Virus record (IMG/VR): IMGVR_UViG_3300009506_000178
Coordinates: 1-24,873 of that record
Source: a virus
Reading direction: 5' to 3' (one strand)
DNA: 24,873 nucleotides
The notes below the pieces were generated by a model that had not been told where the DNA came from, did no database searches, and saw only the letters and a program-made list of their open reading frames with translations. Below, piece after piece: positions 1-11,547 of the stretch. Position numbers and translations under genes: made by a program. How positions within the stretch are numbered: the stretch's first letter is position 1; each line of letters opens with the position of its first letter.

Positions 1-692
1 AAAACACCATGCTCGGTGTATGGATCAAGCTCATAATGAGCCTGGATGAATTCATTGCGCACGACATGGCGCACACGACTTGTTACGTTTCTATCTACCC
101 TCCAGGCATTGTTGACATAGGTTTTGACTGTCTGAGTTATCTCACCAGTCTGGTCCTTGGACAGGATGTCCCTAATATCATCTTCCAGAGTCATTGAGTT
201 AGTCAGCGGCTGCACAAATGTGGCACCACCCTGATTGAGACGCTCACTCAGTACCTGAAGCAGCCTCTCTTTGACTGGCTGGTTTCTGATCTGTCTGAGT
301 CTCTGGATTATATCCTCAAGGGTCTCTCTGCGCATTGTGGCTTGTGTGGTTCTAAGATCTCTGTATCTATCCAATACAGAAGACTTGCTACTTTTCCACA
401 CTTCATGGAAGAATCCCTTCCGGTTGATTAATGGAATGGTTGTAGACTGCCTATCAGGCAATGGAACTTCAAATGGCAGGCCACCACTAACAAACGGAAT
501 ACGATTGAGGCCAGACAGCACTCTCCTAGTTCCATAGGCGAACTTACTATCCTTCACCTTTGGATAGTAGCGATAAGCAGCGAACCCCATGAGGCTGAAT
601 GAAGCCATAGATAGACCAACAGACCCTATGGGCCAGCCACGCTCGTCTCGCTCTCCTCTGTTTGGATCTACAAATGGGTATGGATTAGCCAC
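1..692 (-). CDS. Partial gene after the tape measure, probable tail protein with N-terminal hydrophobic segment
   Basis: An uninterrupted minus-strand frame runs from a GTG at 692 to the left edge, giving 230 complete codons with no stop, so the 3' end is missing. The GTG overlaps the last codons and TAA stop of the giant tail gene (stop at 687-685), and an AGAGG lies about 10 bases upstream. The product begins MANPYPFVDP and has a hydrophobic stretch around residues 22-41 (GSVGLSMASFSLMGFAAY), followed by a basic region. The rest looks helical and charged, with a segment rich in Arg, Gln and Leu around residues 110-160. The layout of a short polar start, a hydrophobic segment and then basic residues resembles the start of the giant protein next door. 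I do not recognise a family. Position after the tape measure suggests a tail or baseplate-proximal protein, possibly ejected with the genome. Confidence 0.8.
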   Translation of the reverse strand, partial: MANPYPFVDPNRGERDERGWPIGSVGLSMASFSLMGFAAYRYYPKVKDSKFAYGTRRVLSGLNRIPFVSGGLPFEVPLPDRQSTTIPLINRKGFFHEVWKSSKSSVLDRYRDLRTTQATMRRETLEDIIQRLRQIRNQPVKERLLQVLSERLNQGGATFVQPLTNSMTLEDDIRDILSKDQTGEITQTVKTYVNNAWRVDRNVTSRVRHVVRNEFIQAHYELDPYTEHGV

Positions 693-3600
693 CTAGTAGT
701 GCCCTCTCTGTCGGTGAAAGTGATCTATCTGGGCGAACAAGGGTAGCGGTAAGAGCCCTTGATCGATTTACTGTTATCTCTATTCTGGTTGGTACATCGC
801 CAGTCTGCGTGGCTCTGTGGCCTCCTGGGATGCCATCTATCATAACGTTTCCAGTAGCTCCGAACTCACGTATGATCCTCTGGATAGCTGCCTGAGTGTC
901 GTATTTGTCCGGTGCTATATCTCCACCCATGTACTGTCCATCATAATGGGTTAGCTTAGTCATCTGTATTGGCCCTGGTATGAAGGGAGAAGCCCTCATC
1001 CTATCCATCTGATCCTTCCATCCAAGACCGAAATCATGTGCATCATATCCTTCAAACTTGGCACTATTTAGCTTCACATCCTCAAGCTGAACCGCTGGAG
1101 CCCATCCTCCCCATCCAACCTCGGGCACTCCTTCCTCTTCAACAAACTTGCTGACATTCTGGCTATTTCTGAAGTCAGATAGAGCGCGGAAGTTCCTCTC
1201 TCCATCCTGAATCCCCCATCTAACACCAAGCAAGTTACCAACATCTTCTGGCACCAACTCCATAATCCTCTGTCTCTCATCAGGATCAGTAGTGCGCATG
1301 AATGCATTGAAGAATGGGCGCTCTGCATAAGGCAAAGCTCTGTACATAGAAGTCCACCCTGCTGTGGACATTCCAAGAGGATTCAGCCCAGTCATTGTCT
1401 CCCCGGCTTTACGAAGGAAATCTGGAGATCCTGTTAGCTCATGAAGACGCATAGCTTTCATGTACTCAAGCTTGTCAAAGTAAGCCTCCAGTTCTCTCTT
1501 GCGCTTCACATCAGATGGAACACCAGACTTGGCACCGATGACATATCTACCAGCACCATACACGCCCCCAGCGATAGAGCCAATCATTGCCCCAGGAGCA
1601 CTACCAACTAGTCCTCCCATGAATGCCCCTCTAGCTGCGCCTTCTAGTAAAGAGTCAGAAGATACTAGTGTCTTTGCCCATGGTTCAGCGAAGTCACGTA
1701 TGGGATGCTCCCAGAATGCAGCATCTCTTCCATACAACCTAGTTCTTTCATACTCCTCTATCGGAGTTCTGTAGTGAAGGAATCTGGTATGTATTGGTGT
1801 ATCTAGATGTGAGTTATGTATTGTGTACAACCCGGTTGAATACGTGTGATCCTCATAGACTGTGAAATCATACAGTGGACTCTTGCTTCGTGGTTTGCTT
1901 GTGCCAACAGAAGTGACCATCATATGACATATATCATCCTCATCAAACCACATCAGCTCATTCTTTGGTGCTTCGACTCCGTATAGAATTCGTTGAAGAT
2001 CAGTCTCATCTATCACCAGATCATATGAGCTGGAATTCAGCTTGATGATATGGTGTGCTATGTGAAGTCTCAGCAATAGCTTCGATATGTCAAACAATGT
2101 ACCAGTGCTGCTCAGCTTGAAGGTATTGAAGCTCTTGTTCATTGTCAATCCTCTAACAAATGCTTTCAGCATGACAATGTCAGAGTTCTTAACAAAGTCA
2201 GGGATGCGCTTCTCCTTCCCATATCCGAACAGCCCCTTGATCATCAGAGCGAACACAGGAGATGTAAACTTCACATAGTCATATCCAGATATAGTTTGCT
2301 CGGTTGTCTGAACAACCATTGCTGATGCTGTTCTCATAGAATCAAGCTTAGCTGTGTCAGAACAGAAGCCTATTCTGATGCCATGGTCAGATCCCTTGTC
2401 TCTGATCGGACCGCCTCTTGCAAAATAGTACCCTAGTAGTCTCATGAGCTCCTGGCTCTTCTCAACCTTGCGCTGGAAGAACTTCACACTGCCCTTCTTC
2501 CGTAGCATCTCTACATCATCTATTACTTCGCTTATGAGATCAATATCTGCCAGTTCCATCACATCTAGTTCGTCTGTGCGCTCATCTATGATGATTGGCG
2601 GAAACAGCAGCACATCTCCTCTGGTGACATCTCCAGCTTTGACAAATCCACGCTCTGTCCATATGATGTGGTTGGTGGTTGTTCTAAGTGGATGCTCATG
2701 CCCACCTGCACGTATGGTTCTCATCTTGTCCCAGGACTCTGGCATTCTTACATGAACATCTGTTACTGCTCGCCATATTCCAGTGTGAGTTCTAACCAGA
2801 TCATTTTCACATACCCTTCTAGCCTCTATGTATCCACGATGGGTTTCTATTAGCTCATCCTCTGGAACACAGAACATCTCCCACGCGGCTCCAGCTACTC
2901 TCTCTGGGAATGAATACTCAGCGGAAGCCTTGAGATTCTCATTGGTGCTGAGGTTGGTGTACTCTGTATCAGGAGAGAAGATCTTCCCTTTGAACCGATA
3001 AGGATAGTACTCTTGCTTCTGAACTACGGCTCTTCTCTGCTTCAGAATAGTCTGAACTCTGTCTTTGTCCTCATCTGATAGTAGCCCCATCCTGCTTTGC
3101 ATTCTAACTATCTCCAGCTCTTCCTTGTACTTCTTCGAGTATGGGGCAACATCTGCTAGAATTGCCAATCTATCCAGGTGACTATAGTCCTCTCCTGCCC
3201 ATCCAAGATTCTTTGCTCTCAATTCCATAGCTATACCTCTAGCCTGCAGCATCTTGGCTACATCTTCCTCATACCTGCTCTGGGAGAATGGCACATCAAA
3301 TGCCAGCGTAACCCTTGGGTCATCTCTAGATACATACAAGATCTGCCCACTATAGATACCGCTGGCCTTCATGTAGAAGTTCACCTGACTATAGTGCTTT
3401 GATCTAGGAGCAGTCATTTGAGACAGAGCCTCTGTTGTGATGGTCTTGATCTCAACTACCTTGTTCTTCCGTCCCTCTCTAACTATCGCATCCATATGCC
3501 CAGATACGTTGGAGTATGGGTCATAGACTAGCGCCTCTGCCTTAACAAGTAGATTAGCTCTTGCAAGTTGTTCCTGAACTACCTTGTGCAGATATGTACC

Positions 3601-6600
3601 CATGGAGGTTACATCGAATCCCTCTTCATCAAGGGGAGGAGATTCACCAAGCATTCTAGTAACGATCTCATCTCTGGTCATTCCTATCCATGATGCTCTT
3701 CCTGGGAATGTCTTCTTAACCGTTCTTGCTGATTCATATCCAGATCCTGGAAGTCGCAGCAATCCCTCCGGAACCTTTGTATAAGGATCTCCATACGCGA
3801 AGTTCATGAAGTAGTCTCTGGTATCCAACCACCCAGGCATCTTGTTTCTGATCCTGTTGTAATACTCAGTGTTGAATGGTCTTCTTGGTATGAATCGTCT
3901 CCAGAACTCAGTCAGACCCATTTGCCCACCTATATTCAGATCCCAATATCTGCGCCGATATGAGTACAGCTCAGAGGCATTCTCCATGACAGCATCAGGC
4001 TCAAACATTCCTCTTCTACCATCTTCCCCTTGGATCTTACCCATGGCAGACTCATATCCGAATCCAACAAGACCAAGAGGCTCGATGATTCCTCTGTACT
4101 CCATGTTTCCAAGAGTAGCACCAAGACTAGTTGAAGATAGAGGAGCGGGCAATCTCAACGAGGCAGTTCCTGGCGACACGTTGTCTGCGCCAGCCATAGG
4201 AGCAAAGTGATCCTCGTACTTCTTTAGGAAGTTTGGACTGGAGTATCCTATCGTTCCACCATTCCTTGGATCAGTAGCATCATCGTAACTATTGAACAAC
4301 CTAACAAGCTCCTTGTGATGCATCTTGATAGTAGGCTTGGTGAATGGAAGATGGAATGGTCCAACCATTGGAGCCTTGGCTGTTATGTAGGAAATAGCTG
4401 GTCCAACAAATGGTATCTCTTCTCCCAGACCACCAGTCTCCGGATATGGCCTGGACAGATAATGCTTGCGCTCGTAATGGTAAGGATCTATCAGTGCTCC
4501 AATCAGATTCACACCCATCGGTGGATTTGCGAACAGAGCAGCTTCCATCTTGCTTCCAAGACCATCTGGAGTGTACTCATACTGTGACTTGAGTCTCACA
4601 AACCAGTTAGGTCTGAAGTACATGATATCCTTGCCCTGGTAGTTCTGTCTAGACAACTCCCAGAATCTACCTCTTCTAACCGGCACCTCTTTCCTACCAG
4701 AGAACTCCTCTTCAAACTGCTGCTTCGATCTAGTAGAGAGCAGACCAGGACCAGCGAATAGACCTTCTCCTGTAACAAGGTTCTGGCTCAGCTCTCCTGC
4801 ACTCAGCAATAGACCAGCAGTCATTCCTATGGCTGCTCCCTGTCCTCCCCTTAGCCTAGCCCCCAGTGCAGAGAATACAAGGGGAGGAGCGAAGGTTCTG
4901 ACCATACTGGCAGCTGGACTCTCTATGGAACCAGGCATCAGCCCTTCCATATACTTAGACAGCTGAGTCAACCCAGTTATATCCTTGAAAGCATGATACG
5001 TGTGCGATGTCTTAACCACCTGATCAGCCATTGCTACAGTTAATCCTTCATCAAAGGCTGTTCCGTTGAACATAGGATTCTCATCAATAGCAGCATCAGT
5101 GAACTGATAAACTGCTCCAAGTCCAGCAACAGCAGGTCCCCACGTAATAGCAGTTAGACCCATTGCCAATGCGCTTCTTCTATGGTCTGGATTATTAGGG
5201 GCAAACCCCATGAACTCGCCTATTCTAGCAAATCTATCAGCCAGCCAGAATGGAATCATTCCGGCTCTAGACATAACGAACTTTGGATCATGCGGAGGAT
5301 CCTCAAGACTGTCCTTCCATATTGATGGGAAGAAGCTGCGCATCATTCCGCCGAATCCTCTTGATCCAGGAGAGAAGAAGCTGTTTGTCACTGATACGAA
5401 TGGTGAGTCGTAGATCCTTGCAGCAATGGGATCATCTATGGGAACTCTGGTGAATTCTCTTATCTTGCCAGATGACCACGGTGGAATATACTGCTTTGCC
5501 AGCTGATAAAGAGGAGTCTGGGCATCCATTACAGTATTCAAACTCTCAAGCAACACTTGATCATTTACATCACTTCGGGTACCCTCACGAATAGCATCCA
5601 GAACTTGCTTCTTATACGTCAGTATTCCAAGAGCCTTTCTCTCGCTCTTCCTGATGTAGTTCAGACCCTCTGATTCTGATGCTTTTGCTATCTCGTTGAG
5701 CTCAGATGCCCGCAGATTGCTTGACAGGATCTTCTCTTCTGCTATGACATTACGTATCTCCTGCAGCTTACTAATGGTGCTCTTCCCACCATAGCCAAAT
5801 CCTCTTGAACCAGCTTCCTCTGTGATGGCTCTGAAGTCATCATAACTTCTGCCTATTACAGAGTTAACTGTTGATGCAACTCTTCTGTTACGTGAGAATA
5901 GAGAGTCTCTAACATTGGTATTCTGAAGAACTCTGTAGAGATAGTGATCATCCTCTAGGGCCCTCATGACATTCACACCAACACCAGGTCCTAGTTCTAC
6001 ATCTCCCTGAAGAATCTTTCTGAACATCCCTGGTCTAGATGTCACTATGGTTGTTGCATTGATGGATGCTCTTCCTACAAATCCACTTACTAGCTGTAGA
6101 GCTTCCTGGGCCATGGTTCTCTCTTTAGGATTGAAACCTTGTCTTGCTCTGGCTGCTATGAATTCCTTGTTGAACACTCTTGATTCGTTGCTAAGGAGAT
6201 TTAGAACGCTGTGCGGCTTCGTGTACTTCGCTGCTAGATTAGATACCCATGTGAATAGTGATTCTGACTCTCCATATCCTGCACCTATCTCAAACCTTCT
6301 GAGAACATGCTCATGAACACGTCTTCTCCATTTACCAATGAACCCCTTACTCCATGCTCTGGTTTCTGCAAGCTCCTTTACATCCATCAGCCTGGATTCT
6401 GGTAGACCGTAGTGCTTGTGCACCGCACGAGCTATGTATGATCCTCTTCCTGCCCTGAGCATCCTATAGGAGTTATATGGATTGATAGGAACTATCTGTC
6501 CTGGTTTGACCAGATAATGCTTCCCAAGGAAGAACAGACCAGCCTCATCTTCACCAGGCACAATAGCCCCAAGCCTACTAAACAAAGCCTCTGTGTTGAC

Positions 6601-8172
6601 ATTGGCTGGCTTATGAATATACCCAAGCCCCATTCTACCTTCGCCATGTCCATAGAAATCGGCAGCCACTTCCTTGTCCATGAAGATTCTGAGAGGAGTG
6701 CCTAGTACGCCAACAGCAACACCACCAACTCCACCAAAGGAATGCTGCATTGCAGTGACTGCTCTGTTGAACAGATACTTCGGACTAACAGCCCGCATGT
6801 CAAGAATGTCACCGCTTCCCTGTAGTCTATATATTGGCTGCTTGGAATAGAGGTTCTTAGTGAGCTTATTGTAGATAGCTCCGGAGGATCTCTTACCAAA
6901 GATGCCAGTCTTAGCTATCCTGGCAGCAAGAACTCTAGACTCGCGCTCAGCTACCTTTGCCTTCTCTACACCCAGTAGCTCTTCGAAGAATGTAGATCTT
7001 GGCTTTGCCTGTCTATCTCGAAGATCCTTTAGGAATTGTCTCTTAAGATCTCTAACTCCAGCAACCTCATGAAGACTACCACCCATTCCTCCAACCATAG
7101 AGGTTCTCTCTATGGCAGAGACCATATTCATTAGATCATCGTCTATACGATTGACACGTCTGGTGTTTCTGAGAAGGATCCTTTGCTGTCTCTCCTTCTG
7201 GAATGATTCAATGAAGTTCCTGGCGTTCCTCAACATACCAGAGGGTCTTACAAACTTCCTCCAGGTAGAGGGAACCATGGTATCTCTCCATGTAACAGAT
7301 CCAAAGGCCCCGCCAAGACCTGCTTGAACAGACTTCCCATATGCCAATGTCTTCTCGAAGAACTGCAGAGTCTGCTTTGTGGCATGCTCTCGCATGCTTG
7401 GATCTATCTTTCCAACGAACTTCTGAAGAGCTGCACCTCCGACTCCCCTAACACCATAGTTGAGAAGGTTCCCACCACCTACAAAGAAAGCGTCTATTGG
7501 GTAGAATCCGGCAGTGAACTTAGCATAGTCCAGGAGAGTTCCTGGAACATTGAAGACAGATGGCTTATCAGATTCACCGTGCAATCCCCCTATGATTCTA
7601 TCTGCAAGATAGAATGGCACGGATCTCTTGAGGTAGTCCTGCGCATGGACTGCCATAGCACCTTTGACAACAGCTATTCTATCATAGGTGTTCTTCTTCA
7701 GCAGAGACTGGGCCTTCAGCCCCATAACTCTGGTTCCACTCATGTTCCCAAACTTGGCAGCTATCTGCTCTGTCTCTGTCTTCCATTTGTAGTACGGGTT
7801 TGTTATGTCTCTGACTCTGCCTCTAAACTGCCTAATCCAGTTATCCCTAGGAAGCTCGTCTACAATAGATGCAAGAGGGGCTGGAGCTGAGCCCACAGCT
7901 CTCACTGCTGCTCTCTCTGCTGTTGCGAATGCAGATCTTGGAAAGGCTCTAGCAACCTTTTGAGATAGGCTGCTGGTGAGTCTGGTTGTGGCACCGCCAA
8001 GCCGCTTGGTTAGAAGACCAGTCAGGGCAACATATCCAACCATAGTAAGACCAAGTCTGATGAAATCAGACGTACCAAATCCATCCTGACCAGGGATATT
8101 CCCTAGGCCAGTTGGCAAACCAGTATCTAGCTGGTTGTATTGATCATCATAGTACTTGTCTATGTCAGCCAT
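685..8172 (-). CDS. Giant tape-measure-position tail protein with PD-(D/E)XK nuclease domain and intein
   Basis: This 2495-codon gene directly follows the two tail chaperone-like genes, the usual place of the tape measure protein, which sets tail length and sits in the tail lumen. The ATG at 8172 overlaps the preceding stop as TAATG; an in-frame TTG at 8196 is less likely. A hydrophobic segment lies at residues 37-54, with others near 1001-1025 and 1095-1128 and a glycine-zipper stretch near 2174-2213. A RecB/Cas4-like nuclease domain spans about 1505-1640, with H1529, D1561, E1574, K1576 and Q1596/Y1600. Residues 1768-2120 are an intein, so the spliced product should be about 2142 residues. 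I see no lysozyme or peptidase motif. The protein lacks the long uniform coiled coil of simple tape measures, so it may instead be a composite tail-lumen or ejection protein. Role is inferred from position; the nuclease and intein are read directly from motifs. Confidence 0.82.
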   Translation of the reverse strand: MADIDKYYDDQYNQLDTGLPTGLGNIPGQDGFGTSDFIRLGLTMVGYVALTGLLTKRLGGATTRLTSSLSQKVARAFPRSAFATAERAAVRAVGSAPAPLASIVDELPRDNWIRQFRGRVRDITNPYYKWKTETEQIAAKFGNMSGTRVMGLKAQSLLKKNTYDRIAVVKGAMAVHAQDYLKRSVPFYLADRIIGGLHGESDKPSVFNVPGTLLDYAKFTAGFYPIDAFFVGGGNLLNYGVRGVGGAALQKFVGKIDPSMREHATKQTLQFFEKTLAYGKSVQAGLGGAFGSVTWRDTMVPSTWRKFVRPSGMLRNARNFIESFQKERQQRILLRNTRRVNRIDDDLMNMVSAIERTSMVGGMGGSLHEVAGVRDLKRQFLKDLRDRQAKPRSTFFEELLGVEKAKVAERESRVLAARIAKTGIFGKRSSGAIYNKLTKNLYSKQPIYRLQGSGDILDMRAVSPKYLFNRAVTAMQHSFGGVGGVAVGVLGTPLRIFMDKEVAADFYGHGEGRMGLGYIHKPANVNTEALFSRLGAIVPGEDEAGLFFLGKHYLVKPGQIVPINPYNSYRMLRAGRGSYIARAVHKHYGLPESRLMDVKELAETRAWSKGFIGKWRRRVHEHVLRRFEIGAGYGESESLFTWVSNLAAKYTKPHSVLNLLSNESRVFNKEFIAARARQGFNPKERTMAQEALQLVSGFVGRASINATTIVTSRPGMFRKILQGDVELGPGVGVNVMRALEDDHYLYRVLQNTNVRDSLFSRNRRVASTVNSVIGRSYDDFRAITEEAGSRGFGYGGKSTISKLQEIRNVIAEEKILSSNLRASELNEIAKASESEGLNYIRKSERKALGILTYKKQVLDAIREGTRSDVNDQVLLESLNTVMDAQTPLYQLAKQYIPPWSSGKIREFTRVPIDDPIAARIYDSPFVSVTNSFFSPGSRGFGGMMRSFFPSIWKDSLEDPPHDPKFVMSRAGMIPFWLADRFARIGEFMGFAPNNPDHRRSALAMGLTAITWGPAVAGLGAVYQFTDAAIDENPMFNGTAFDEGLTVAMADQVVKTSHTYHAFKDITGLTQLSKYMEGLMPGSIESPAASMVRTFAPPLVFSALGARLRGGQGAAIGMTAGLLLSAGELSQNLVTGEGLFAGPGLLSTRSKQQFEEEFSGRKEVPVRRGRFWELSRQNYQGKDIMYFRPNWFVRLKSQYEYTPDGLGSKMEAALFANPPMGVNLIGALIDPYHYERKHYLSRPYPETGGLGEEIPFVGPAISYITAKAPMVGPFHLPFTKPTIKMHHKELVRLFNSYDDATDPRNGGTIGYSSPNFLKKYEDHFAPMAGADNVSPGTASLRLPAPLSSTSLGATLGNMEYRGIIEPLGLVGFGYESAMGKIQGEDGRRGMFEPDAVMENASELYSYRRRYWDLNIGGQMGLTEFWRRFIPRRPFNTEYYNRIRNKMPGWLDTRDYFMNFAYGDPYTKVPEGLLRLPGSGYESARTVKKTFPGRASWIGMTRDEIVTRMLGESPPLDEEGFDVTSMGTYLHKVVQEQLARANLLVKAEALVYDPYSNVSGHMDAIVREGRKNKVVEIKTITTEALSQMTAPRSKHYSQVNFYMKASGIYSGQILYVSRDDPRVTLAFDVPFSQSRYEEDVAKMLQARGIAMELRAKNLGWAGEDYSHLDRLAILADVAPYSKKYKEELEIVRMQSRMGLLSDEDKDRVQTILKQRRAVVQKQEYYPYRFKGKIFSPDTEYTNLSTNENLKASAEYSFPERVAGAAWEMFCVPEDELIETHRGYIEARRVCENDLVRTHTGIWRAVTDVHVRMPESWDKMRTIRAGGHEHPLRTTTNHIIWTERGFVKAGDVTRGDVLLFPPIIIDERTDELDVMELADIDLISEVIDDVEMLRKKGSVKFFQRKVEKSQELMRLLGYYFARGGPIRDKGSDHGIRIGFCSDTAKLDSMRTASAMVVQTTEQTISGYDYVKFTSPVFALMIKGLFGYGKEKRIPDFVKNSDIVMLKAFVRGLTMNKSFNTFKLSSTGTLFDISKLLLRLHIAHHIIKLNSSSYDLVIDETDLQRILYGVEAPKNELMWFDEDDICHMMVTSVGTSKPRSKSPLYDFTVYEDHTYSTGLYTIHNSHLDTPIHTRFLHYRTPIEEYERTRLYGRDAAFWEHPIRDFAEPWAKTLVSSDSLLEGAARGAFMGGLVGSAPGAMIGSIAGGVYGAGRYVIGAKSGVPSDVKRKRELEAYFDKLEYMKAMRLHELTGSPDFLRKAGETMTGLNPLGMSTAGWTSMYRALPYAERPFFNAFMRTTDPDERQRIMELVPEDVGNLLGVRWGIQDGERNFRALSDFRNSQNVSKFVEEEGVPEVGWGGWAPAVQLEDVKLNSAKFEGYDAHDFGLGWKDQMDRMRASPFIPGPIQMTKLTHYDGQYMGGDIAPDKYDTQAAIQRIIREFGATGNVMIDGIPGGHRATQTGDVPTRIEITVNRSRALTATLVRPDRSLSPTERALLGG
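1813..2871 (-). mobile_element. In-frame intein (353 residues) with degenerate LAGLIDADG endonuclease
   Basis: The intein starts at Cys1 (codon 2871-2869, CVPEDELIET) and ends at Asn353 (codon 1815-1813), followed by Ser as the first C-extein residue. Block A has a Cys-Pro-Glu-Asp start and an ending like LVRTHTG. Block B is TTNH at 65-68. Block F and G are YDFTVYEDH (334-342) and the terminal IHN. All residues expected for standard splicing are present. The middle is a LAGLIDADG-type domain: block C LLGYYFARGG at 145-154, block D KRIPDF at 221-226, block E FVRGLTMNKS at 238-247. The two catalytic acids, expected at 152 and 246, are Arg and Lys, so the endonuclease is probably inactive while splicing is retained. 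The reading frame continues through both junctions, which fits an intein and not an intron. Confidence 0.93.
3253..3660 (-). other. RecB/Cas4-like PD-(D/E)XK nuclease domain inside the giant tail protein
   Basis: The domain covers about residues 1505-1640 of the giant protein. In order it has GTYLHKVVQE (motif with H1529), GHMDAIV (D1561), VVEIKT (E1574 and K1576) and QVNFY (Q1596 to Y1600). This is the G-x-x-x-H, G-x-x-D, E-x-K, Q-x-x-x-Y order known for the RecB/Cas4 branch of PD-(D/E)XK nucleases. All expected metal-binding and catalytic residues are present, so activity is plausible. No iron-sulfur cysteine cluster like that of Cas4 is visible nearby. It lies about 130 residues before the intein insertion point. 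Confidence 0.85.
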
Positions 8173-8933
8173 TAGATTGGTGGTCCATCTACCCAAGCGT
8201 GTTCATTCTCTTGGTAGTCATCTTTGCCTATTACTGTCTTCTTGATATCACCCTTTGACAGATTCTCTGGAGGCCTTTCTCTTTTGTTGATAATTGCCTC
8301 ACGGATACTGATTGGATCATTTCCAGTCTCATTGAAGATTCTTTCGCGCAGGGATCTCTGTGCTGGTTCTATCCCTGACATCCTCAAGCTGTCAAATACA
8401 TCTCCACCAGACCACTTATTGTCTACTGGTGCTCTGATAGGAGGAGGTGGCACTGGAGTAGGAACTCTCTTTCCTCTGTCTCTCTTATCTGAGTACAATC
8501 TCTTCTGTGCGACAAGCTCAACCTGTCCAACATATGACAAGAACTCCTCAATACCCATGTTATCCACATCAAGTGGATTCATGTTGAAGTATGAGCATAT
8601 CAGAGCTTTAGCCTCTGGATGGAACGACTGAGCCTCTTTGCGCTTCTCAGACAAGATAGTTAGGAACACATTTTCATCACCCCAGCCAGAGATCTTTAGA
8701 ATACTCTCACACAGAGCCACATATTCACCAGTTCTTAGCTCTGGTATCTCTTCTGGGTGTACTACAGCAGCCTGTATGATGAAATCTTCAAGATCAGGAG
8801 ACTGTTCCTTGCCATCTATTTTGGCAAACTCACCTAATGATAGTTGCTTGAAAACAAATAAGGTGCCCCCAACCTCTAGTGAGAAGAGGGCACCATGCTT
8901 TTGCTTCAGAGCGTCAATGTCTGGATGGGACAT
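8172..8933 (-). CDS. Tail assembly chaperone-like protein, long paralogue
   Basis: This 253-residue protein sits immediately before the giant tail gene, where tail assembly chaperones are normally found. Its first 45 residues match the start of the preceding 114-residue protein in pattern: both have an ALK-x-x-HG motif, then a Ser-Leu strand, glycines and a Phe-x-Phe/Phe-Lys strand. The middle (about 50-145) looks helical. Residues 150-175 are Pro-rich (TPVPPPPIRAP), and the tail is polar and charged. The ATG at 8933 has AGGA about eight bases upstream. The stop overlaps the next start as TAATG, which suggests translational coupling. In many phages a short and an extended chaperone are made by frameshifting; here two separate genes seem to serve instead. 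Function is inferred from position and the paralogy. Confidence 0.72.
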   Translation of the reverse strand: MSHPDIDALKQKHGALFSLEVGGTLFVFKQLSLGEFAKIDGKEQSPDLEDFIIQAAVVHPEEIPELRTGEYVALCESILKISGWGDENVFLTILSEKRKEAQSFHPEAKALICSYFNMNPLDVDNMGIEEFLSYVGQVELVAQKRLYSDKRDRGKRVPTPVPPPPIRAPVDNKWSGGDVFDSLRMSGIEPAQRSLRERIFNETGNDPISIREAIINKRERPPENLSKGDIKKTVIGKDDYQENEHAWVDGPPI

Positions 8934-9306: not shown

Positions 9307-10566
9307 TTATGATATGGAGAATGTTCTCCTGTTGGATCTCACATCTGTTCCATTGTAACTGGCTATTACATAGATGTATCCGTTTCCTGAGGTGATAGGA
9401 TATCCCTGCAGGATCTCGGTGAAATCTATGGTAGCGGTTCTTCCTTCATATCCTAGATTGAAGAAGAAACTTGGGTCATGATTCTCATAGTGCACCGCCC
9501 AGTGAAACTTAACATTATTTTGCAATCCATCTGGAACGCCAACTGCCTTTGCTTGAACTGCAATCAATGGGAATGTTCCGTTAGTGGCCGAAATGGTGAG
9601 GTGTTCTATTGGCTCTTCAATAACAACACCACTGAGAACCAGATTACTTAGAGCATTATCTTCTGTGCTCGCTGGGTCGTCGTCCACGGGGTTACCATCA
9701 GAATCAACAACTATCTCTATGGTATCCAGAGTCTCACCTACTTGATCAGTATTATCTGCATCATTAGAACCTGAATACTGTGAGCCGAAGGGATCTGATG
9801 CTCTTTCTGACTGCAGAGTTTGCCCCTCCTGCCCATGATATGGATCCATCATCTTTCCAAAGAAGGTGTATGCCTCAAAGAGAGGTTCACCATTTGGTGT
9901 TAGTAGTTGTCTGATACCAGTTATATGACAATCCCCAATACTCTTGACTGTCCACTCATTTGATGCATTGGAGATGTTCCCATAAATGACTTCTATGTCA
10001 AACCCAGACACTATCGTTTGCAGGCTTTTGTCCTTGTCGAGTGCCTGCTCTCGCAATCCCTGGGCCACCTGGCCCCAGATCCTGTCCTCAAGATATGTTT
10101 TCATACCATGAAAGTCCGCACCACTGTCCTGTTTTAGTGCTTCGTCTAGGATCCTATCGTAATTGGTAAACTTGGGGAGAGCTGGCCCAAACTGCGTGGA
10201 GCTTTGTGCTCTCTGTTCATATGCCTTCCTGGCCTTGTTCTGTTTGACCCTCTTGAGGATAGACTCACCAGATTCTCCTCTAGTGTTCAGATAGTCCAGG
10301 ATGGTATTGATATAGTCTCTGTCCTTGAAGGCAACAGTGAAGACCCCCTGCACTATTTGTGTGCCTCTAGCTATTGCATCATACTTATCAGATGCATAAC
10401 CGTATAGAGGGGCCTTCTGTTCAACCAGATCCCAGCTGATGGTAACAACCTCATCTACCCAGACGTTCCCAAAGAACACCTTAGTTTGAGCCCCAGAGAA
10501 GTACATATCAGTGTACTGGACTAGGTTTAGATCTGGCTGTTGTCTTATTAGATCAGTGTTTGGCAT
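9307..10566 (-). CDS. Third tube-type tail protein with acidic linker and beta-rich C-terminal domain
   Basis: This 419-residue protein shares the tube-type pattern of the two preceding genes: FSG at 23-25, a Glu-Gln-Lys-x-Pro strand, then ARG and FTVAFKDRD about 65-85. The later strands are recognisable but more diverged. Residues about 90-180 are an inserted helical, charged segment. Residues about 245-305 are an acidic, Ser/Asp/Asn-rich linker, and about 307-419 form a beta-rich domain that looks Ig- or FN3-like. The ATG at 10566 has GAGG about six bases upstream. As the most diverged copy and the one nearest the chaperone and tape measure genes, it may be a tube-initiating or tube-capping ring; that is inference. 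It could also be a baseplate-tube adaptor. Confidence 0.7.
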   Translation of the reverse strand: MPNTDLIRQQPDLNLVQYTDMYFSGAQTKVFFGNVWVDEVVTISWDLVEQKAPLYGYASDKYDAIARGTQIVQGVFTVAFKDRDYINTILDYLNTRGESGESILKRVKQNKARKAYEQRAQSSTQFGPALPKFTNYDRILDEALKQDSGADFHGMKTYLEDRIWGQVAQGLREQALDKDKSLQTIVSGFDIEVIYGNISNASNEWTVKSIGDCHITGIRQLLTPNGEPLFEAYTFFGKMMDPYHGQEGQTLQSERASDPFGSQYSGSNDADNTDQVGETLDTIEIVVDSDGNPVDDDPASTEDNALSNLVLSGVVIEEPIEHLTISATNGTFPLIAVQAKAVGVPDGLQNNVKFHWAVHYENHDPSFFFNLGYEGRTATIDFTEILQGYPITSGNGYIYVIASYNGTDVRSNRRTFSIS

Positions 10567-10620
10567 TTGCTACCTCAACCATATTGTACCACGTAATGGT
10601 CAGTAAACAAAGTTAGTTAC

Positions 10621-11547
10621 CTATCTAATATCAAGATAGCTCCAAGGAGTGTAATACGGTCCAGTCTTGTCCAGTGTCCCTTCCTTGGGTATGTTGTAGC
10701 TGTTCTTGGATAGATCTTCTAGTTGGGAATTCAGCAGGGCAAGTTCTGACAATAGAGAAGATCTTGTTGCGCCACTTGCAGTTGCGAGGCTGGTCTCCAC
10801 TTGTCCTATCTTACGAAGAATGCTAACGGCCAGCTCTATGTTCAACTGGGAAGTATAGTCAGAGAAGAAGATACCCTGATTGATGAATGTCTTTCCATCT
10901 GGACCAAACTCAAGACCATTTGGAGCCATGATTGTCATATCCCTTGCTAGATAGCTGGTGACATTCTCTGTAAAGATGTCATCGATGGACATAGTCTGGC
11001 CTTCGTTGACCATTTCAAGTCCATACAGGCGCATGGATGACATTACGCCAACCTCATTCTGGAAGGTGATTGTAATGTCTATCGGAGGGATTTGGTCTAT
11101 CAGTGTACTGTGTCCAGCTATATCTGGAGGATCATTCCTATTGATAGATGGTACCAACTCCCACAATGCATTCCTATCGAATACAGTAAACACCATGCTG
11201 CCAGCTATCGTCCTGGCTCCTCTGGTGAACCCCTTTGGATTGGATCTCCCAAGAGTTCTGACTGGATTCTTCTCTCTATGCACGGAGAAGGAGAATGTCT
11301 GGAGTTCAGCGAACTTCTTCAGCTTCCCATCAGAGTAGGCTTGGACAATAATATCACACCCAGAGAATGAGTGGTATCTGTTGCTTTGATCTACTAGTGC
11401 ATTAAATGGTTCTGGTAGTGCTCCACCAATAGGTAGCTGGGCAGCCACGTTGGCTATATTGGCAGGTGTAACCAGCTCATCTATATCTGGCACATCTACC
11501 CATTCAAGTGGATTCCCTACACTTGCTACAAGTCTCTCTTTAGACAT
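10621..11547 (-). CDS. Second tail-tube-type protein with N- and C-terminal extensions
   Basis: A 308-residue protein closely related to the 206-residue tube protein upstream. Shared landmarks are FSGCD at 61-65, a REK-x-P strand, RG-x-x-x-IAGS followed by FTVFDR, DQIPPIDIT, SM-x-x-YG-x-E and NEG-x-x-x-SIDDI. It differs by about 45 extra residues at the N-terminus and about 90 at the C-terminus, the latter including a Leu/Ser-rich helical stretch at about 230-285. The ATG at 11547 has GGGGGTGA directly upstream, a wobble version of the consensus, with a short spacer. That site can be paired into a hairpin with the preceding leader. It may form a special ring of the tube or a second tube layer; the exact role is not visible. 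Confidence 0.75.
   Translation of the reverse strand: MSKERLVASVGNPLEWVDVPDIDELVTPANIANVAAQLPIGGALPEPFNALVDQSNRYHSFSGCDIIVQAYSDGKLKKFAELQTFSFSVHREKNPVRTLGRSNPKGFTRGARTIAGSMVFTVFDRNALWELVPSINRNDPPDIAGHSTLIDQIPPIDITITFQNEVGVMSSMRLYGLEMVNEGQTMSIDDIFTENVTSYLARDMTIMAPNGLEFGPDGKTFINQGIFFSDYTSQLNIELAVSILRKIGQVETSLATASGATRSSLLSELALLNSQLEDLSKNSYNIPKEGTLDKTGPYYTPWSYLDIR

Follow-up and report, generated by a model that had tools for sequence, protein, structure and literature searches.

A probable class 1 intein with a decayed endonuclease domain in a predicted giant tail protein of a phage

Inteins are thought to favor the conserved active sites of nucleic-acid-binding enzymes. For example, mycobacteriophage inteins have been found in TerL, RecB-like, and portal proteins; these hosts were described as nucleic-acid-binding, and no tail protein appears in the survey table (PMC5050341). 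Inteins are also known from phage head proteins, such as the minor head protein of cryoconite phage AB09 (PMC7468147), and from the capsid morphogenesis protein of Jerseyvirus (PMC8425127). Weak intein matches were obtained as well for MuF-like minor capsid proteins of Gordonia. Like the predicted tail protein studied here, these three are virion or morphogenesis proteins, but they belong to the head and not the tail. The original prediction held that phage inteins usually lie in DNA-metabolism proteins, which is broadly correct but has to be narrowed in view of the published portal, minor head, and capsid-morphogenesis cases. For giant tail genes, interruption by introns with homing endonucleases has been reported in tape measure genes, e.g., in ICP1 (PMC10448857). 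Such introns place a mobile element in a giant tail gene, as in the present locus, but act through RNA rather than protein splicing. No report of an intein in a tail protein was found in the open-access literature searched, the partial coverage of which makes this weak evidence.

Two described inteins are particularly close to the one analyzed here. PhoVMA from Pyrococcus horikoshii (PDB 7qst), whose endonuclease was published as degenerate and inactive (PMC8966425), likewise combines a Hint domain with a retained LAGLIDADG domain in which both acids are gone (Z 24.8 over 290 residues). However, its host is a cellular ATPase subunit instead of a phage tail protein. The acids of the present intein were replaced by Arg and Lys, and no truncation of the second helix is evident in the alignment. 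PI-PkoII (PDB 2cw7) was the best match in both fold and sequence, but it is longer (537 versus 353 residues) and has Glu and Asp at the positions of R152 and K246 in the phmmer alignment. The element belongs to a known kind, the inteins; what is unusual is the class of protein that hosts it, a predicted phage tail protein.

The giant gene and its place in the tail region

The window, that is, the whole stretch of DNA analyzed, measures 24,873 bases and is a linear virus record from a metagenomic, contractile-tailed phage. According to Pfam and PHROG scans, its minus strand encodes in order the portal, head genes, the major capsid protein, the sheath, two probable tube genes, two small ORFs, and a giant ORF, followed by one more gene that runs off the window end. 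The open frame of the giant ORF (685-8196, minus strand, 2,503 residues) is intact throughout. Translation likely starts at the ATG at 8172, which forms a TAATG overlap with the stop of the upstream ORF. The gene and its main parts outside the intein are as follows.

685..8172, minus strand: gene for the predicted giant tail protein, encoding an intein precursor of 2,495 aa from the likely ATG start; first giant tail gene after the sheath and tube genes, from the ORF, gene order, and homologues
2872..8172, minus strand: N-extein, ending in ...AGAAWEMF
3199..3732, minus strand: insertion of a PD-(D/E)XK (Cas4/RecB-like) nuclease within the N-extein, approximately aa 1489-1666, PHROG match at 3.7e-18
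688..1812, minus strand: C-extein, beginning with Ser+1 (SHLDTPIHTRF...), conserved in homologues
1525..1641, minus strand: glycine-zipper-like segment of the C-extein, GAARGAFMGGLVGSAPGAMIGSIAGGVYGAGRYVIGAK, read from the sequence

Two adjacent ORFs between the sheath and the giant gene (window 9307-11547, minus strand) both scored against a PHROG labeled "major head protein". They probably encode tail tube proteins, and the label looks wrong.

Across phages, the giant protein ranges from approximately 1,190 to 2,500 residues and is encoded by the first giant gene after the tube genes. In both the window and Bacillus phage KLEB27-3, tail tube and chaperone-like genes precede this gene. The KLEB27-3 homologue is in two halves, each of which bears the annotation "structural protein". 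Gene order and this annotation together suggest a virion tail protein, which would be present in the virion and essential. By position it is a likely candidate for the tape measure, but no Pfam or PHROG tape-measure profile matched the giant protein, and when L093, a homologue lacking an intein, was modeled with AlphaFold, the fold gave no PDB match and distant viral matches only. In relatives, three giant genes follow in succession. In phage 0305phi8-36, the tape measure gene sits directly before the hub gene (PMC2147016). The second giant gene is therefore also a tape-measure candidate, since the next two genes are giant too and the 0305phi8-36 gene order would allow it.

The KLEB27-3 homologue has an ICP1-like break. 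In this phage, a segment containing an endonuclease-like ORF divides the gene (gp031-gp033; L004:11150-12250, plus strand), and Rfam returned for the break a group I intron at an E value of 0.026, below the curated score. As a separate observation, the next giant tail gene of Moorella phage MTATph1 (CDS0027; L005:13354-17283, plus strand) encodes a DnaQ-like exonuclease domain (PHROG 192, E value of 5e-11).

The nuclease insertion has intact motifs, G-H-M-D (D1569), E-I-K (E1582-I-K1584), and Q-V-N-F-Y (Q1604). It is located at RLPGxGYE and recurs in five homologues (L008, L067, L080, L076, and L085), with a degenerate copy in L026. The intein had been placed between a nuclease domain and a glycine-zipper segment, and this location was borne out, the nuclease being of the PD-(D/E)XK type. 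In contrast, the idea that splicing joins a nuclease "half" to the remainder of the protein did not survive, since the nuclease is actually a small insert common to several lineages. The nuclease was also considered as a partner of the intein; this was ruled out by its recurrence in the intein-free homologues L067, L080, L076, and L085. MTATph1 and KLEB27-3 instead carry a segment just before the intein site, which was read by eye as staphylococcal-nuclease-like; its catalytic residues are apparently missing, and Pfam did not confirm the reading. When 763 aa of the N-extein served as the query, only L096 was retrieved, which is related via the nuclease domain. This contig (L096:3-16559, plus strand) encodes a tape-measure-like protein of >5,500 residues with a RecB/Cas4-like nuclease domain in the middle.

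Boundaries, fold, and splicing residues of the intein

The minus-strand segment 1813-2871 translates to 353 in-frame residues with no stop. Its features are listed below.

1813..2871, minus strand: intein, Cys1 to Asn353, 353 aa, residues 1776-2128 of the 2,503-residue frame, from HMM, alignment, and model
2869..2871, minus strand: Cys1, the N-terminal splice nucleophile, invariant in the intein alignment
2668..2679, minus strand: splicing block B, T-T-N-H, residues 65-68, with T65, N67, and H68 invariant
1813..1818, minus strand: His352-Asn353, the C-terminal splice junction, invariant
1810..1812, minus strand: Ser+1, the C-extein nucleophile, from the alignment; the intein-free homologues that match most closely have Ser, Ala, or Thr here
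2416..2418, minus strand: R152 in LLGYYFARGG, the first LAGLIDADG motif, where seven of the eight relatives with an endonuclease domain have Glu
2134..2136, minus strand: K246 in FVRGLTMNKS, the second LAGLIDADG motif, where all eight of these relatives have Asp

Together, these features make it very probable that the segment is a full-length class 1 intein, made up of a Hint splicing domain in which a LAGLIDADG endonuclease domain is nested. In the structural model, the Hint fold spans residues 1-353 with the splice junctions at its ends, and the characters of class 1 (Cys1, a TxxH block B, a C-terminal His-Asn, and Ser+1) are all present. Block F contains Asp335 and His342. Among the ten aligned inteins of the giant-protein family, C1, T65, N67, H68, D335, H352, and N353 are invariant. 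The splicing residues were found intact as foreseen.

Standard libraries were of little help here. The Pfam scan gave no match to the intein region, and the NCBIfam and PHROG scans gave weak matches to intein-bearing proteins, as would be expected from a divergent intein. In contrast, an HMM built from the nine other inteins of giant-protein homologues, with the window intein excluded, aligned over model positions 1-385 to exactly the 1813-2871 stretch (E value of 7e-18). The HMM comparison proposed for this region was therefore negative with Pfam, weak with NCBIfam and PHROG, and positive with the family-specific model, and the negatives from the standard libraries alone would have misled. 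A phmmer search of PDB sequences gave PI-PkoII (E value of 1.7e-4), and the window intein, used by itself as a single-sequence query against viral contigs, retrieved no relative. HMMs of the N block or the C block, made without the window intein and used alone, matched weakly (best-domain E values of 0.12 and 0.032, respectively), which also points to a divergent sequence.

An AlphaFold model of the intein was produced from the ten-intein alignment (pLDDT 77, pTM 0.78). Its best PDB match was PI-PkoII (Z 27.8, 336 residues, rmsd 3.7), followed by TliVMA and PhoVMA (Z 24.8 to 26.7) and by PI-PfuI and PI-SceI (Z of about 19); these are inteins with endonuclease domains. The LAGLIDADG fold of the model matched I-DmoI, PI-SceI, and WhiA. 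The fold match to PI-PkoII and the leave-one-out HMM bore out the identification as an intein. Hedgehog and bacterial intein-like domains share the Hint fold and also matched the model (Z of about 15), so that the element might be read as an autoprocessing domain that cuts the protein into two pieces and leaves the flanks unjoined. Such a domain is extremely unlikely here: the element has an endonuclease domain, Ser+1, and a terminal His-Asn, and in homologues lacking an intein its two flanks run on as a single conserved chain.

This continuity was evident at the junction itself. Intein-free homologues L085, L026, L024, and L005 (MTATph1) cross it ungapped, as was expected of a clean WEMF/SHLD junction, and no insert at the window intein site was present among the homologues examined. 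The best ungapped match was L085, YSGGEIAFGAAWERI-SHMNTIFNTK versus YSFPERVAGAAWEMF/SHLDTPIHTR in the window (GAAWERI-SHMNT versus GAAWEMF/SHLDT), with 24 of 50 residues identical in a stretch made up of the 15 residues that precede the junction and the 35 that follow it. Shuffled queries reached at most 14 identical residues, in scans against a smaller protein set than that used for the real query. In L026, L024, and L005, Ala replaces Ser+1. On these alignments, the insertion is clean and in-frame. Recent import of the intein was unsupported, as its synonymous codon use lies within the extein range.

The acidic residue of each LAGLIDADG helix is absent from the window intein, and both aligned columns are basic. 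This agrees with the prediction for R152 and K246, set against the Glu and Asp of relatives in the list above. The PhoVMA intein, which lost both acids, has been shown to be inactive (PMC8966425). By the same double loss, the window endonuclease is almost certainly inactive, as judged from sequence, and the intein should splice but not home.

Splicing would proceed by attack of Cys1 to form a thioester, transfer of the N-extein to Ser+1, and cyclization of Asn353 with the assistance of His352. WEMF would thereby be joined to SHLDTP to give a single uninterrupted tail protein, with the predicted ligated junction peptide AAWEMFSHLDTPIHTR. With Arg and Lys in place of both metal-binding acids, neither DNA cutting nor homing would be expected. 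The intein may be retained because loss of splicing would break an essential tail gene. Splicing would be expected to occur and, as far as so divergent a sequence can tell, to be efficient. Alternatively, it may be degrading or slow, leaving mostly precursor in a phage that is tolerant or defective. The low identity to the other aligned inteins (17 to 21%) and the already dead endonuclease would suit such decay, but with all splicing residues intact and the 2,503-codon frame open it is very unlikely. Excision by class 1 splicing with loss of homing is, with high probability, the best explanation as a whole, and the weight of the case lies on structure and comparison.

Intein turnover in the giant-protein family

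Homologues of the giant protein were found in 2 isolates and >50 metagenomic phages. The set analyzed comprised 61 distinct homologues with the window included and fragments and duplicates removed. A scan of genome contigs found one homologue only, in a MAG, matching IMG/VR L026. A scan with the window sheath gave no matches, and neither it nor the N-extein scan brought up a close relative of the phage. Eight of the 61 homologues carry 10 inteins at 7 sites, each with Cys1, His-Asn, and Ser+1, and the inteins of relatives occupy six sites other than that of the window. About 50 homologues have no intein, and many sites are empty. The sites fall in conserved motifs, such as RGRxWExGR/S, RLPG/S, and WExF/SHLDT. 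In one case (L027:2358-10211, plus strand), a single giant protein contains three inteins (aa 561-935, 1145-1601, and 2119-2505). Several sites per protein and a sporadic distribution have likewise been described for mycobacteriophage inteins (PMC5050341).

One site is shared by L015, L019, and L027 and is empty in L018 of the same clade. Full-length inteins are present in L019 and L027, while L015 has an endonuclease-free intein of 166 residues (L015:6054-6551, plus strand). Since full-length, endonuclease-free, and empty versions of this site coexist in one clade, the pattern fits mobile-element turnover by an ordinary homing cycle of repeated invasion, decay, and loss. The window intein is one of several independent invasions of the family.

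Of the intein-bearing phages with searchable records, most also gave intein-like matches elsewhere, and the L027 contig has further ones in other genes. In the phage represented by L011 and L052, another gene of the tail region, located upstream of the giant gene, also contains an intein (L052:1135-2472, plus strand) with Cys1 and a terminal HN/Thr (RGQR/TIAGSMIFTTF), so that inteins occupy two genes of the tail region in a single phage.

For some inteins, splicing has been described as conditional. The window intein might accordingly be kept as a regulatory maturation switch, with timed or conditional splicing gating the giant protein or its nuclease domain, particularly as splicing is needed for one continuous protein and the nuclease insert precedes the intein in the same chain. 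This reading is decidedly unlikely, because about 50 homologues are intein-free and others have inteins at different sites, an intein at the window site was found in no other phage, and the nuclease insert occurs in four homologues free of inteins. A maturation step had been suggested for the locus from the start; what holds is that every intein must splice, whereas a role beyond that has no specific support, given the intein-free homologues, the other sites, and the turnover pattern. A broader proposal makes the giant tail protein family a multi-site intein hot spot in which the endonuclease of the window lineage decayed and tail assembly became splicing-dependent, perhaps as a virion-assembly checkpoint; taken whole, it is unlikely.

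Implications for phage inteins

In this phage and seven relatives, inteins sit at conserved motifs of a giant protein that is probably structural and part of the tail. Thus, the range of intein hosts is broader than phage surveys suggest. With occupied, endonuclease-dead, endonuclease-free, and empty states, the family provides a natural setting in which to examine how the homing cycle runs in phages. In addition, splicing-dependent tail assembly is directly testable in this system, and several compact splicing domains become available from new sources.
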